A DNA stretch of 45,255 nucleotides from a virus. Positions 1-45,255 of the stretch are shown piece after piece. Under the pieces are notes generated by a model that was not told the DNA's origin, ran no database searches, and saw only the letters and a program-made list of their open reading frames with translations. The stretch lies in the IMG/VR virus record IMGVR_UViG_3300026488_000004, positions 1 through 45,255 of that record; one strand, 5' to 3'. Each line of letters opens with the position of its first letter. Position 1 is the stretch's first letter. The translations under genes were made by a program, and so were the position numbers.

Positions 1-127
1 TCTTCATAAGAAAGGACTAAAAATGAAATATACAAAGGAAGCTTTTGAGTATGTTTTGTCTTTAATTGAGGAATATAATCTTTACTCATACAAAGAGTTG
101 GTTCTGAAGTATAACGAACTGACTAAG
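1..127. repeat. 127-bp terminal direct repeat, left copy
   Basis: The first 127 bases are identical to bases 45129-45255. Exact identity and a length equal to a common assembler k-mer suggest the overlap left when a circular or circularly permuted genome is assembled. A true terminal repeat is possible but less likely. The repeat contains the start of the HTH gene at 23. Confidence 0.95.
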
Positions 128-652
128 TCAAGGGAATCAATTACTACAATTAGAGGAATGATGAATTATTATGGTTTTTCTATGGAAAAACATAGAGCTA
201 ATAGAGTTTTGGAGTTAAGAAAAGTTGGATTTTCTAATCAGCAAATCGCTGATATTGTGGGATTAAACAAAGAAAGTGTTTCAAGAATAGGGGCTTCTCT
301 TGACAAAAAAAGAATCAAAAGAAGAAAACGTAATTTTTGGAAAGAACAAAGTTTTAAAAATAAACTAATTAGTTTACTTGAAGGACATAATTACAATCTT
401 ACTAAAGTAGCTGAAAAAGTAAGAATGAGATTTTCAGATCTTGTTGAAGTTTTAAAATATCATAATATTTATGACTTATGGAGAGCCAATGCTAAAATCA
501 AAGATGGTTCTAAAACAAGAAAGTGTATAGAATATTTTAAGTTATATCCAAATGCTAGTGCTTATAAAATAGCAGAGATCGTAGGGTGTGATTACAAAGT
601 GGCTTATAAGGCAAAGAGAAGGTTTGAAAAGGAGTTAAACTATGAAAAATAA
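23..652 (+). CDS. multi-HTH DNA-binding protein
   Basis: A 209-residue basic protein. Residues about 62-93 form a clear helix-turn-helix of the resolvase/sigma-like kind (core QQIADIVGLNKESVSRI). A second HTH-like stretch lies at about 181-201 (YKIAEIVGCDYKVAY), and residues 110-150 may hold a third. There are no catalytic resolvase residues, so it is more likely a transcription regulator than a recombinase. The start follows AAGAAAGGACTAAAA. The gene overlaps the sigma-4-like gene by 11 bases, which suggests translational coupling, and it lies downstream of the palindrome-array locus across the circular junction. The DNA target is unknown. Confidence 0.75.
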   Translation: MKYTKEAFEYVLSLIEEYNLYSYKELVLKYNELTKSRESITTIRGMMNYYGFSMEKHRANRVLELRKVGFSNQQIADIVGLNKESVSRIGASLDKKRIKRRKRNFWKEQSFKNKLISLLEGHNYNLTKVAEKVRMRFSDLVEVLKYHNIYDLWRANAKIKDGSKTRKCIEYFKLYPNASAYKIAEIVGCDYKVAYKAKRRFEKELNYEK

Positions 653-902
653 ACAATATGATGAAATAATTATTGAAGCTTCCAAATGTTTTAGGCGTCA
701 TAAAACATATGATGGTATGATAGAATGCTTAAAACAGAAAGGATATAAATATCCAGAAAATCGTCTTACAGGTTTAACTCTTGATGAGATAGGATATATA
801 ATGGGTGTTACGAGAGAAAGGGTAAGGCAAATAGAAAATTCCGCTTTTAGAAAAATAAGAATGTTTGGCTACAAATATAAAGATTTACTCGATTCTATTT
901 AG
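642..902 (+). CDS. stand-alone sigma-70 region 4 protein
   Basis: An 86-residue protein. Residues 45-73 match region 4.2 of primary sigma factors closely: a TLDEIG helix, a turn, then VTRERVRQIE and a basic tail FRKIR, the part that reads the -35 element and docks on the RNA polymerase beta flap. Regions 2 and 3 are absent, so it cannot melt a promoter alone. By analogy with short phage sigma-like proteins it could be a co-activator, a late-gene specificity subunit, or a competitor of host sigma. Start follows AAGGAGTTAAACT. It is coupled to the upstream HTH gene and overlaps the end of the leftward late block by 8 bases. Confidence 0.85.
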   Translation: MKNKQYDEIIIEASKCFRRHKTYDGMIECLKQKGYKYPENRLTGLTLDEIGYIMGVTRERVRQIENSAFRKIRMFGYKYKDLLDSI

Positions 903-8726: not shown

Positions 8727-8750
8727 ATAGAACCAACAGAGTGGTTCTAT
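8727..8750. terminator. repeat-pair hairpin between structural genes
   Basis: ATAGAACCA (8727-8735), a 6-base loop and TGGTTCTAT (8742-8750) form a 9-bp stem from two oppositely oriented copies of the dispersed word. It sits just after the stop of the 107-residue gene. There is no strong T-run on the leftward transcript, so it could be an attenuator, an mRNA-stabilising 3' end or a weak terminator. Confidence 0.55.
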
Positions 8751-15683: not shown

Positions 15684-16007
15684 CTATCCTATCAACTTAT
15701 ATATTTTATTTATTCCATCAGAGCCAACAAGTTTATGTTTAAATAGATTCAATAACCTCTTGTTGTTGGTTCTACATAATGGCTTATGTTTAGCAATTAG
15801 CTTTTTTACAATAGAATATATCTTAAACTTACAATCCATTCCTTCAACTGTAAAAAAGTTAATATAGTTATCTCTATCAATAATAACAATATATTTACAC
15901 AATGAAACATACTCCTTTAGTCTTGTAAAAGAACCAACAAAACACTCCGTTGGTTCTAATCCTAGAGATCTAAAGTATTTCAAAGTTTCTTTGCTGAAAT
16001 TAACCAA
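15684..16007 (-). CDS. hypothetical protein, TTG start
   Basis: A 107-residue basic protein of unknown family, beginning at a TTG placed 6 bases after AAGGA; no ATG fits. Its start overlaps the end of the coiled-coil gene by 8 bases, so it is probably coupled to it. An internal pair of inverted repeat words (15930-15957) could form a hairpin inside its mRNA. Confidence 0.55.
   Translation of the reverse strand: MVNFSKETLKYFRSLGLEPTECFVGSFTRLKEYVSLCKYIVIIDRDNYINFFTVEGMDCKFKIYSIVKKLIAKHKPLCRTNNKRLLNLFKHKLVGSDGINKIYKLIG
15930..15957. repeat. inverted pair of dispersed repeat inside a gene
   Basis: AGAACCAAC (15930-15938) and GTTGGTTCT (15949-15957) are perfect complements separated by 10 bases. 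The pair lies in the 5' part of the 107-residue gene, so the hairpin is coding sequence, not a terminator. Confidence 0.7.
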
Positions 16008-27320: not shown

Positions 27321-27447
27321 TTGGATTTTAATTATAAAAATTTAAGGGTTTTAATCTAAACCACCCCTTCTCTCTAAAATCAGATCCCCCCCCTATGTCC
27401 GTGAAAAAGAATTCTTTTACCTTGGTTCTGTACTTGGTTCTGTGTTC

Positions 27448-29636: not shown

Positions 29637-29651
29637 CTTTCGGAGATTTTT

Positions 29652-29670
29652 TGTGTCATAGTATGACACA
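29652..29670. promoter_or_regulatory. operator 1 of RepL-like gene
   Basis: TGTGTCATA-G-TATGACACA is a perfect 9-1-9 palindrome. Its right half contains the likely -35 TGACAC. Probably the site for a dimeric regulator, likely the product of the gene it precedes. Confidence 0.7.
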
Positions 29671-29693
29671 AATTAATAAAAATGTGTTATAAT
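29664..29693 (+). promoter_or_regulatory. promoter of RepL-like gene
   Basis: TGACAC (29664-29669) and TATAAT (29688-29693) are 18 bases apart. The -35 lies in operator 1 and the -10 in operator 2, so binding at both would block RNA polymerase fully. Confidence 0.65.
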
Positions 29694-29701
29694 ATGTCAC
29701 A
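29683..29701. promoter_or_regulatory. operator 2 of RepL-like gene
   Basis: TGTGTTATAATATGTCACA is an imperfect copy of operator 1, 31 bases on (three helical turns centre to centre), and includes the -10. Two same-face sites suggest cooperative repression. Confidence 0.65.
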
Positions 29702-29724
29702 AAAAGATAAAAGGGAGCTATAAA

Positions 29725-30180
29725 ATGCAATATGATGTTGAATATGTAGAACCAACAGAATTGGCGGGTAAGACAGTTGTCATCAAAGAACTAAAAAAAC
29801 CATATTATTCTGAACCATACCATTGCAAATTCACACTTGTTGGTTCTAAATTAGGAAATGAGTATTCTTTATTTTTGACTTTATTTAATGCTTTTAAACT
29901 AAAAGAAATGGTATTAATTGAATATTTATTTAGATATATGAACAAAGAAAACATTATTGAAATAAAGAAAGAAAAAATAATCTCTGAACTAAATATAAGT
30001 ATGAGAACTTTATACAGATGGTTAAAAGCCCTTGAAAAAGAAGATTTGATGGTAAAAATATCGAAAGACAAATATATGATTAACCCACAAATTGTTATTA
30101 ATTACAGAAAGGTAAAAAACAGAAAAATACCAGATTTAGTTGAACAATATAGAACTTATAAATTAAAACTTAAACAATAA
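29725..30180 (+). CDS. RepL-like winged-helix protein (initiator or regulator)
   Basis: A 151-residue protein. Residues about 65-130 form a winged helix: a helix ending YLFRYMNKEN, a recognition part ISELNISMRTLYRWLKALE, and a wing ending KYMINPQIVI. The YMINP end and overall layout recall RepL-type plasmid replication initiators. It is preceded by its own promoter inside two palindromes, which fits autoregulation by an initiator or repressor. Start follows AAGGGAGCTATAAA. If it is an initiator, the palindromes or the array at 44212 are candidate targets. A pure transcription factor is the alternative. Confidence 0.6.
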   Translation: MQYDVEYVEPTELAGKTVVIKELKKPYYSEPYHCKFTLVGSKLGNEYSLFLTLFNAFKLKEMVLIEYLFRYMNKENIIEIKKEKIISELNISMRTLYRWLKALEKEDLMVKISKDKYMINPQIVINYRKVKNRKIPDLVEQYRTYKLKLKQ

Positions 30181-33439: not shown

Positions 33440-33464
33440 ATCAGAACCACCTCTTGGTTCTGAT
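33440..33464 (+). terminator. repeat-pair hairpin after SSB-like gene
   Basis: ATCAGAACCA (33440-33449), loop CCTCT, TGGTTCTGAT (33455-33464): a perfect 10-bp stem made of two opposed dispersed words, in the only gap between the SSB-like and helicase-primase genes. No T-run of length follows. Probable terminator or mRNA processing/stability element. Confidence 0.65.
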
Positions 33465-44086: not shown

Positions 44087-44122
44087 AGAACCAACAACAC
44101 AGTATTTGTATGCGTTGGTTCT
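44087..44122. terminator. repeat-pair hairpin after helicase gene
   Basis: AGAACCAAC (44087-44095), an 18-base loop and GTTGGTTCT (44114-44122) pair perfectly. The left arm starts one base after the helicase stop. Likely the end of the rightward replication transcript, though no T-run follows. Confidence 0.55.
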
Positions 44123-44211
44123 GAATCAAAAATAGATTTTGCATAAAACATTTAAGACATTTTAGAGATACATATATATTAAGTAATTTTCTTTTCTTTC
44201 TTATATATTTA

Positions 44212-44400
44212 GTATCTCTGTGATACCAAATAGATTTCTTTTATAGTATCTTTGTGATACCAAGAATTAAAAAGTTGGTATCTTTCTGATACCAAGGTTT
44301 AACCTTAGTATCAATTTGATACTCTACTATTTGGTATCAATTTGATACCGTTCTATTTAGTATCTTTCTGATACTCTACTATTTGGTATCTTTCTGATAC
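44212..44400. promoter_or_regulatory. array of seven GTATC-N5-GATAC palindromes (iteron/operator-like)
   Basis: Seven 15-bp units start at 44212, 44246, 44278, 44308, 44334, 44360 and 44386. Every unit has both perfect half-sites GTATC and GATAC; the five central bases are TCTGT, TTTGT, TTTCT, AATTT, AATTT, TTTCT and TTTCT. Spacing starts at 34, 32 and 30 bases and settles at exactly 26 for the last four units, about 2.5 helical turns. A half-site lies at 44406. The array ends 17 bases before a consensus promoter. Possible roles: operator for the RHH-like protein, replication origin iterons, or a centromere. Confidence 0.85.
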
Positions 44401-44417
44401 TATTGAGGTATTTTGTC

Positions 44418-44447
44418 TTGACAGCGTGATAATTTTTTATGTATAAT
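44418..44447 (+). promoter_or_regulatory. consensus sigma-70 promoter
   Basis: TTGACA (44418-44423), 18 bases, TATAAT (44442-44447): both hexamers are perfect. It lies between the palindrome array and the RHH-like gene and would drive the rightward unit that continues through the junction into the HTH and sigma-4-like genes. Confidence 0.8.
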
Positions 44448-44475: not shown

Positions 44476-44646
44476 ATGAGAAAAAGGTATTCCTTTAGAT
44501 TTGGAAATGACTTTGAAGAGCTGTTAAATAAAGCTAAGAAGAGACTATATGAGGAAAATAAACATTTGTTTGGTTCATTAGATGATATAACGAAAACAAA
44601 AACCATAGAGTTTATAATAAGAATGTATGCTAACAAAAAGATTTAG
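44476..44646 (+). CDS. small RHH-like DNA-binding protein
   Basis: A 56-residue basic protein from ATG at 44476 after AAAAGGATTAAT; the longer frame would begin inside the promoter. It has a short N-terminal strand (RYSFRF), a helix (EELLNKAKKRLYEEN) and a second helix after TKTKTIEF, the layout of ribbon-helix-helix dimers. With the seven palindromes and promoter just upstream, an autorepressor or partition-type protein is likely. The family call is from the layout only. Confidence 0.6.
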   Translation: MRKRYSFRFGNDFEELLNKAKKRLYEENKHLFGSLDDITKTKTIEFIIRMYANKKI

Positions 44647-44648
44647 CT

Positions 44649-45089
44649 ATGAAATTAAAGTATCCAAAATTAAAAGACACAAAAATAGTTGATGGTAGAT
44701 ATGCTATTGGATTAATTGATCAAATTTTTGATATGAATTATGATTTGCTTATCATGGATCCAATAGAAGAAAAAATATATAGATATATATTAAGGAAAAC
44801 TTTAAATAGAGAGCCAAGATATAGAGAAGTATTTATCAAATCAGAAGACTTTGAAGAAAGGTTAAAAATTCCAAACATAACAAGAAAGAGAAAAATAAAA
44901 TCTTTGAAAGAAAAAGGTTTTTTAACCTATAAAAAATATCCATTTAAAAAAAATAAATTTGCAACACTATACAGAGTTTGGATACCGGAAGAAATTGAAC
45001 GGCGTATTGAGTTTAGCGAAGTAGAGAGAGAACCGTTAAAGTTAGAGAAGCGTACTAAAGAAATAGATGCTTCTGAAATTCGGTTCTAA
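44649..45089 (+). CDS. winged-helix protein, possible replication initiator or regulator
   Basis: A 146-residue basic protein. Residues about 38-115 look like a winged helix: helix EEKIYRYILRKTLN, a turn, helix FEERLKIPNITRKRKIKSLKEKG, then a wing ending ATLYRVWIP. The tail is charged. Coupled two bases after the RHH-like gene. No strong family match, but the pair of an RHH protein and a winged-helix protein behind an iteron array resembles plasmid control loci. Confidence 0.55.
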   Translation: MKLKYPKLKDTKIVDGRYAIGLIDQIFDMNYDLLIMDPIEEKIYRYILRKTLNREPRYREVFIKSEDFEERLKIPNITRKRKIKSLKEKGFLTYKKYPFKKNKFATLYRVWIPEEIERRIEFSEVEREPLKLEKRTKEIDASEIRF

Positions 45090-45128: not shown

Positions 45129-45255
45129 TCTTCATAAGAAAGGACTAAAAATGAAATATACAAAGGAAGCTTTTGAGTATGTTTTGTCTTTAATTGAGGA
45201 ATATAATCTTTACTCATACAAAGAGTTGGTTCTGAAGTATAACGAACTGACTAAG
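45129..45255. repeat. 127-bp terminal direct repeat, right copy
   Basis: Exact copy of bases 1-127. It includes the ribosome-binding site and first 35 codons of the HTH gene (start at 45151), so the window runs once around the molecule and 127 bases beyond. Confidence 0.95.
45151..45255 (+). CDS. second copy of HTH gene start, cut by window end
   Basis: The first 35 codons of the gene at 23-652 repeated within the terminal overlap. It is the same gene seen again, not a paralogue. Confidence 0.95.
   Translation, partial: MKYTKEAFEYVLSLIEEYNLYSYKELVLKYNELTK

Follow-up and report, generated by a model that had tools for sequence, protein, structure and literature searches.

At ori-lambda, inverted-repeat iterons bind dimers of the O protein and a neighbouring AT-rich tract opens, and in lambda-type phages such origins serve ordinary lytic replication (PMC5043065). 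The iterons of plasmids such as P1, F and RK2 are mostly direct repeats that are bound by monomers (PMC5043065). RepA_N proteins (found in plasmids and in the Vibrio satellite PLE) bind, as dimers of their N-terminal domain, to semi-palindromic repeats whose inverted arms converge on an A-tract (PMC7145576), and pRN1 encodes a repressor, ORF56, that takes part in controlling copy number (PMC4234260). A search of the literature for iteron arrays with RHH proteins in phages found nothing direct.

The locus described here was found in a viral contig of 45,255 bp (IMG/VR record IMGVR_UViG_3300026488_000004), which was analysed at its full length and is called the window below. It contains seven perfect GTATC-N5-GATAC palindromes (Table 1), which span 44212-44400 with start-to-start spacings of 34, 32, 30, 26, 26 and 26 bp; the half-sites are 10 bp apart, and all seven are tandem sites with dimer symmetry. 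An earlier note on this DNA had reported seven perfect sites with the last four at exactly 26 bp, and a TTGACA-N18-TATAAT promoter with a 56-aa and a 146-aa gene next to them, and all of these are where it had placed them. It had also described the array as abutting the promoter: the two are adjacent but do not overlap, as the last palindrome ends 17 bp upstream of the -35 hexamer (TTGACA at 44418-44423, TATAAT at 44442-44447).

Compared with the known systems, the locus is like lambda O/ori-lambda and the origins of Stx phages in having tandem palindromic iterons (putative here) beside an AT-rich tract, transcription nearby and probably one initiator dimer per iteron (PMC5043065, PMC7466680). 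Unlike in lambda, the putative iterons lie outside the initiator gene and before its promoter, there are seven sites at 26–34 bp, and the proposed initiator is the winged-helix half only, paired with an RHH gene. The likeness to RepA_N is a DNA-binding domain that would act as a dimer on semi-palindromic repeats (PMC7145576), but the palindrome geometry and the gene neighbourhood differ, and there is no Pfam RepA_N match. As in pRN1 orf56/orf904, a small putative repressor gene precedes the putative replication gene in one operon (PMC4234260), but the pRN1 replication protein is much larger, and the origin proposed for pRN1 is a stem-loop that follows the operon, where the window has an array preceding it. 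Iteron plasmids (P1, F, RK2) likewise have an array of initiator sites beside an AT-rich region; every site here, however, is a perfect palindrome, so the array does not consist of direct repeats. Phage initiators of PHROGs 270, 428, 678 and 391 and the DnaD-like phrog_186 belong to the winged-helix family reached by an HMM seeded with the window protein (see below) and have the same palindromes inside their genes; unlike the protein here, they are usually 200–390 aa long, with the array mid-gene and a spacing of mostly 21–24 bp. The unusual traits of the locus are putative iterons before the promoter, a bare winged-helix protein as proposed initiator, 26–34 bp spacing and a paired RHH gene, all of which concern the arrangement of the parts.

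Table 1. Coordinates of the array, its flanking elements and the genes of the operon in the window
Feature	Position	Strand	Remarks
Palindrome 1	44212..44226	.	GTATC-TCTGT-GATAC
Palindrome 2	44246..44260	.	GTATC-TTTGT-GATAC
Palindrome 3	44278..44292	.	GTATC-TTTCT-GATAC; arms reach out to TTGGTATC/GATACCAA
Palindrome 4	44308..44322	.	GTATC-AATTT-GATAC
Palindrome 5	44334..44348	.	GTATC-AATTT-GATAC
Palindrome 6	44360..44374	.	GTATC-TTTCT-GATAC
Palindrome 7	44386..44400	.	GTATC-TTTCT-GATAC
AT-rich stretch adjoining the array, candidate unwinding element	44126..44211	.	Low DNA stability
Hairpin AGAACCAAC...GTTGGTTCT in the helicase-array interval	44087..44122	.	Same place in L106, L107 and L109
Sigma-70-type promoter TTGACA-N18-TATAAT	44418..44447	+	Identical in L106; same layout in L107 and L247
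56-aa RHH-like protein that probably regulates the promoter	44476..44646	+	Model; alignment with L107 RHH (25% identity)
146-aa winged-helix protein, proposed array-reading initiator	44649..45089	+	PHROG, model, HMM, recognition helix
Conserved HTH gene, its start forming the right edge of the exchanged cassette	45152..45255 joined to 23..652	+	
Final operon gene, for a sigma-70 region-4-like protein	642..902	+	Pfam Sigma70_r4, E 2.8e-11

No perfect copy of GTATC-N5-GATAC was found outside the array in the whole window, and three copies with one mismatch were. When up to one mismatch is allowed, 0.84 sites are expected per shuffled window and ten were reached in no shuffle; a chance origin of the seven-palindrome array is excluded. 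A distributed regulon of this site was rejected, the site being confined to this array within the window. The 100 bp from 44150, which run into the array, are the fourth least stable of the genome (top 0.03%) and the lowest of the region.

Few close relatives are present in the collections, and the phages compared, near and distant, were L106, L107, L109, L142 and L247. L106 (IMGVR_UViG_3300026488_000040) keeps all seven sites at the same spacing (34, 32, 30, 26, 26 and 26 bp), and 0 of 70 half-site positions differ from the window, versus 13 of 126 positions in the spacers and the DNA just upstream of the array (Fisher p 0.005). The N5 core of the first site (44212-44226 vs 4560-4574 in L106) is the exact reverse complement (TCTGT vs ACAGA), as if a small inversion between the arms had flipped the site. 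Since a symmetric site stays the same when its core is reversed, the two arms of the sites seem to be what is under selection.

The two ends of the record share an exact 127-bp overlap (1-127 vs 45129-45255). Because 127 bp is a typical assembly k-mer length, this terminal repeat is most likely an assembly k-mer overlap and not a biological end repeat, and the contig most likely represents a genome of 45,128 bp that is either circular or circularly permuted. The record thus closes on itself, and therefore the operon runs on across the contig ends, in the order RHH, winged helix, HTH and sigma-region-4-like gene, with the array in the intergenic region upstream. The HTH protein is 65–74% identical in L106, L107 and L109. 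Elsewhere, the genome encodes a terminase, an N4-type primase, a Sak4-like annealing protein, an SF2 helicase and a Holliday-junction resolvase; a P/DnaC-type loader was sought in part of the window proteins. For a clue to the host, the helicase was scanned against genome contigs, where the sole match (26%) was to Flavobacteriales.

The 56-aa protein was modelled as a monomer (pLDDT 82) with an N-terminal strand region followed by helix-helix; it matches nothing in Pfam or PHROG and nothing convincingly in PDB, by sequence or by fold, and its homologue in L107 matches a repressor PHROG weakly. ORF56 of pRN1 is an RHH protein. The model of the 146-aa protein is a winged helix of moderate confidence (pLDDT 66.5, with a low-confidence tail); in PDB, sequence and fold comparison gave only generic winged-helix matches for it, MarR-like regulators being the best by fold. 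Its direct PHROG matches are weak (a DnaD-like loader is among them), Pfam gives no match and hence neither a RepL nor a RepA_N domain, and the protein lacks the C-terminal half that O/DnaD-like initiators typically have. Single-protein searches found nothing for the 56-aa and 146-aa proteins in phages, and in plasmids nothing for the winged-helix proteins of the window (146 aa) and of L107.

We also observed a motif that is spread over the whole window. The 8-mer AGAACCAA has 131 copies where base composition predicts 1.6, and AGAACCAAC has 67 where 0.25 are expected; both are about equally frequent on the two strands whatever the gene direction, with roughly random spacing. The motif is also found in L106, L107 and L109, and its place is taken by GAACCAC(C) in the distant L142. 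It leaves its mark on the proteins (EPT, VGS and NQ) and is reminiscent of a signal for DNA uptake or another genome-wide signal. Opposite AGAACCA pairs make short hairpins (8729-8748, 15930-15957, 33443-33461, 44087-44122 and others), several of them intergenic. In Neisseria and Haemophilus, paired uptake sequences serve as terminators, and the AGAACCA hairpins are similar.

We scanned 2.9 million viral contigs for palindrome pairs. Paired palindromes were found in 101 stretches for GTATC-N5-GATAC and at least 120 for GTTCA-N5-TGAAC, as compared to 2 for the composition-matched control CTATG-N5-CATAG, with counts that include pattern artefacts (e.g. L013/L112, in which a coding repeat contains the palindromes). 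After dereplication, the array was within or overlapped an ORF at 34 of 43 GTATC loci and 66 of 79 GTTCA loci, and array-bearing ORFs matched replication-initiation PHROGs (phrog_678, 17/32; phrog_270, 33/65); when 100 other ORFs of these loci were taken as a control, none of the initiator PHROG families was among their 25 commonest. An iterative HMM search seeded with the 146-aa protein of the window converged on 94 out of 1977 ORFs, including 76 that overlap arrays, 11 within 300 bp of one and 7 farther away. The spacing among unrelated arrays is typically 21–24 bp, and 26 bp (the smallest spacing in the window) is rare. In one unrelated phage contig (L116, from the genome of L068; 785-1716), an RHH gene is followed by a winged-helix gene, and an array of GTATC-N5-GATAC palindromes is found at and behind the end of the latter.

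Sister phages with helicases 87–94% identical have different palindromes and different winged-helix proteins at the position of the array. L107, whose flanks resemble those of the window (helicase 94% and HTH protein 66% identical), has four copies of GTTCA-N5-TGAAC (spacings 27, 26 and 22 bp) followed by TTGACA-N18-TATAAT, and its RHH and winged-helix proteins are 25% and 23% identical to those of the window. In L109, with a helicase 87% identical, there are two GTGACA-N4-TGTCA sites, and the winged helix is of the RepL/HTH_36 type, without an RHH gene. The distant phage L142 (helicase 36%) contains a complete GTTCA cassette, with RHH and winged-helix proteins about 52% and 57% identical to those of L107. 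Judging from these alignments, array, promoter, RHH gene and putative initiator gene make up one cassette between the helicase and HTH genes, the hairpin at 44087..44122 being its left edge, and palindrome and putative initiator have changed together in the cassette versions of related phages. An array lies upstream wherever close homologues of both genes exist (L106, L107, L142 and L247); relatives that keep the two genes and lack the array, which the earlier note had named as evidence to the contrary, were not seen.

L247 is very close to L107. Their RHH proteins are 86%, promoter-leaders 92% and upstream flanks 89% identical, as compared to 58% for the array and 74% for the winged helix; all array sites are altered in L247, where the GTTCA half-sites have given way to ones of the GTATC/GTAAC type, and the predicted recognition helix changes from SKATLSN in L107 to RRNTLSK in L247. 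Because array and recognition helix change while RHH and promoter stay, and because the same palindromes in other phages sit in winged-helix initiator genes, the array is most likely read by the winged-helix protein and not by the RHH protein. The latter is most likely a regulator that works at the promoter, since RHH protein and promoter stay together in L107 and L247.

To compare recognition helices, we used non-redundant initiators (24 GTATC and 38 GTTCA). An Arg at alignment column 51 is found in 17 of the 24 GTATC initiators versus 2 of the 38 GTTCA initiators (family-wise permutation p 0.006), and a leave-one-out score sorted 87% correctly, using twelve columns of the helix that were selected once the alignment had been seen; shared ancestry inflates these statistics, which are thus optimistic. 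The window protein has Arg at column 51 and scores +10.0 for the GTATC class, as does its L106 counterpart, and the winged-helix proteins of L107 and L142 score for the GTTCA class. The sites of L247 mix 15- and 16-bp forms, and the score puts this phage in the wrong class.

Given the AT-rich DNA beside the array and the parallel with ori-lambda, we read the locus as array, unwinding element and initiator operon, and consider it probable that the array represents seven palindromic iterons of a lambda-O-type phage origin. A dimer of the 146-aa winged-helix protein would bind each GTATC-N5-GATAC site, and strain from the occupied array would melt the adjoining AT-rich stretch, where the phage primase and a replicative helicase could be loaded. 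The downstream promoter would give the mRNA for the RHH protein and the initiator, with the RHH protein regulating at the promoter. The iteron origin that the earlier note had mentioned among its suggestions is favoured by the arrays in initiator families; an RHH repressor or plasmid partition system, its other suggestion, does not fit an array that tracks the recognition helix of the winged-helix protein. Several points speak against an origin: the 146-aa protein is short of the C-terminal half, has no Pfam match and has weak PHROG matches; the operon ends in regulator-like genes; the 26-bp spacing is rare; the GC skew is silent; and L247 falls in the wrong helix class.

The position of the array, outside the initiator gene and upstream of the promoter (at about -61 to -235), fits transcription control too, with the winged helix activating or repressing its own operon as a genetic switch without a role in replication. 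All operon members look like regulators, and the winged-helix protein is short, with the MarR-like fold match given above. However, a consensus promoter requires no activator, and simple repression would need a site overlapping it, which is not there; the occurrence of the same palindromes within initiator genes of unrelated phages and of the region's least stable DNA next to the array also argues against this explanation, and we regard it as unlikely.

The true initiator could instead be encoded by the RepL-like gene at 29725-30180. This gene passes the Pfam RepL cutoff (E 7.5e-8), as does the cassette protein of L109, and is close to the skew minimum; if it drives replication, the array cassette could be an accessory module for incompatibility or superinfection interference whose swapping is driven by selection, and the cassette differs between close relatives as interference loci do. 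Against this, the gene has no multi-site array, and two palindromes at 29652-29701 overlap its own promoter, which fits autoregulation. We think it improbable that this gene drives replication with the cassette as an accessory, though it is possibly a second or the main initiator. The region 29650-30180 contains a second winged-helix gene with two palindromes of the TGTGTCAT type, and an 89% identical copy is found in the genome of L109.

Binding of the array by the 56-aa RHH protein as a CopG/omega/ParG-like repressor or partition protein is very improbable: RHH is the first gene behind the promoter and operons of RHH and replication-protein genes are known (e.g. pRN1 orf56/orf904, PMC4234260), but every array site differs between L107 and L247 while RHH and promoter are kept, and the genome has no ParA-type ATPase. 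Searches of the genome for a ParA-type ATPase (PF13614), and for tyrosine integrases and serine recombinases, were empty, and plasmid partition (parS/ParAB) and an integrating prophage were dropped accordingly. The extrachromosomal phase proposed in the earlier note is unsupported, because neither integrase nor ParA was found and because lambda-type phages use such origins lytically. The GC-skew check that it had suggested was run: the minimum is at 27,400, at a divergent gene boundary, and the maximum at the ends. The skew mirrors gene orientation, gives no independent origin signal and was dropped as an origin marker.

As a tentative proposal, which taken as a whole we hold with somewhat less than even confidence, the locus is a mobile origin cassette, whose replication specificity would be switched by whole swap or by joint change of recognition helix and iterons, and a readable recognition-helix code would pair winged-helix initiators with iterons across unrelated phages. 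If the reading of the locus as an origin is right, origins and their matching initiators could be found straight from sequence via simple palindromic arrays in many uncultured phages. L107 and L247 offer a small natural test of how an initiator and its full iteron set would shift specificity jointly. The cassette swap between near-identical phages suggests diversifying selection on origin type, which bears on phage-phage and phage-satellite interference; cassette switching is perhaps an escape from interference with replication by co-infecting phages or satellites.
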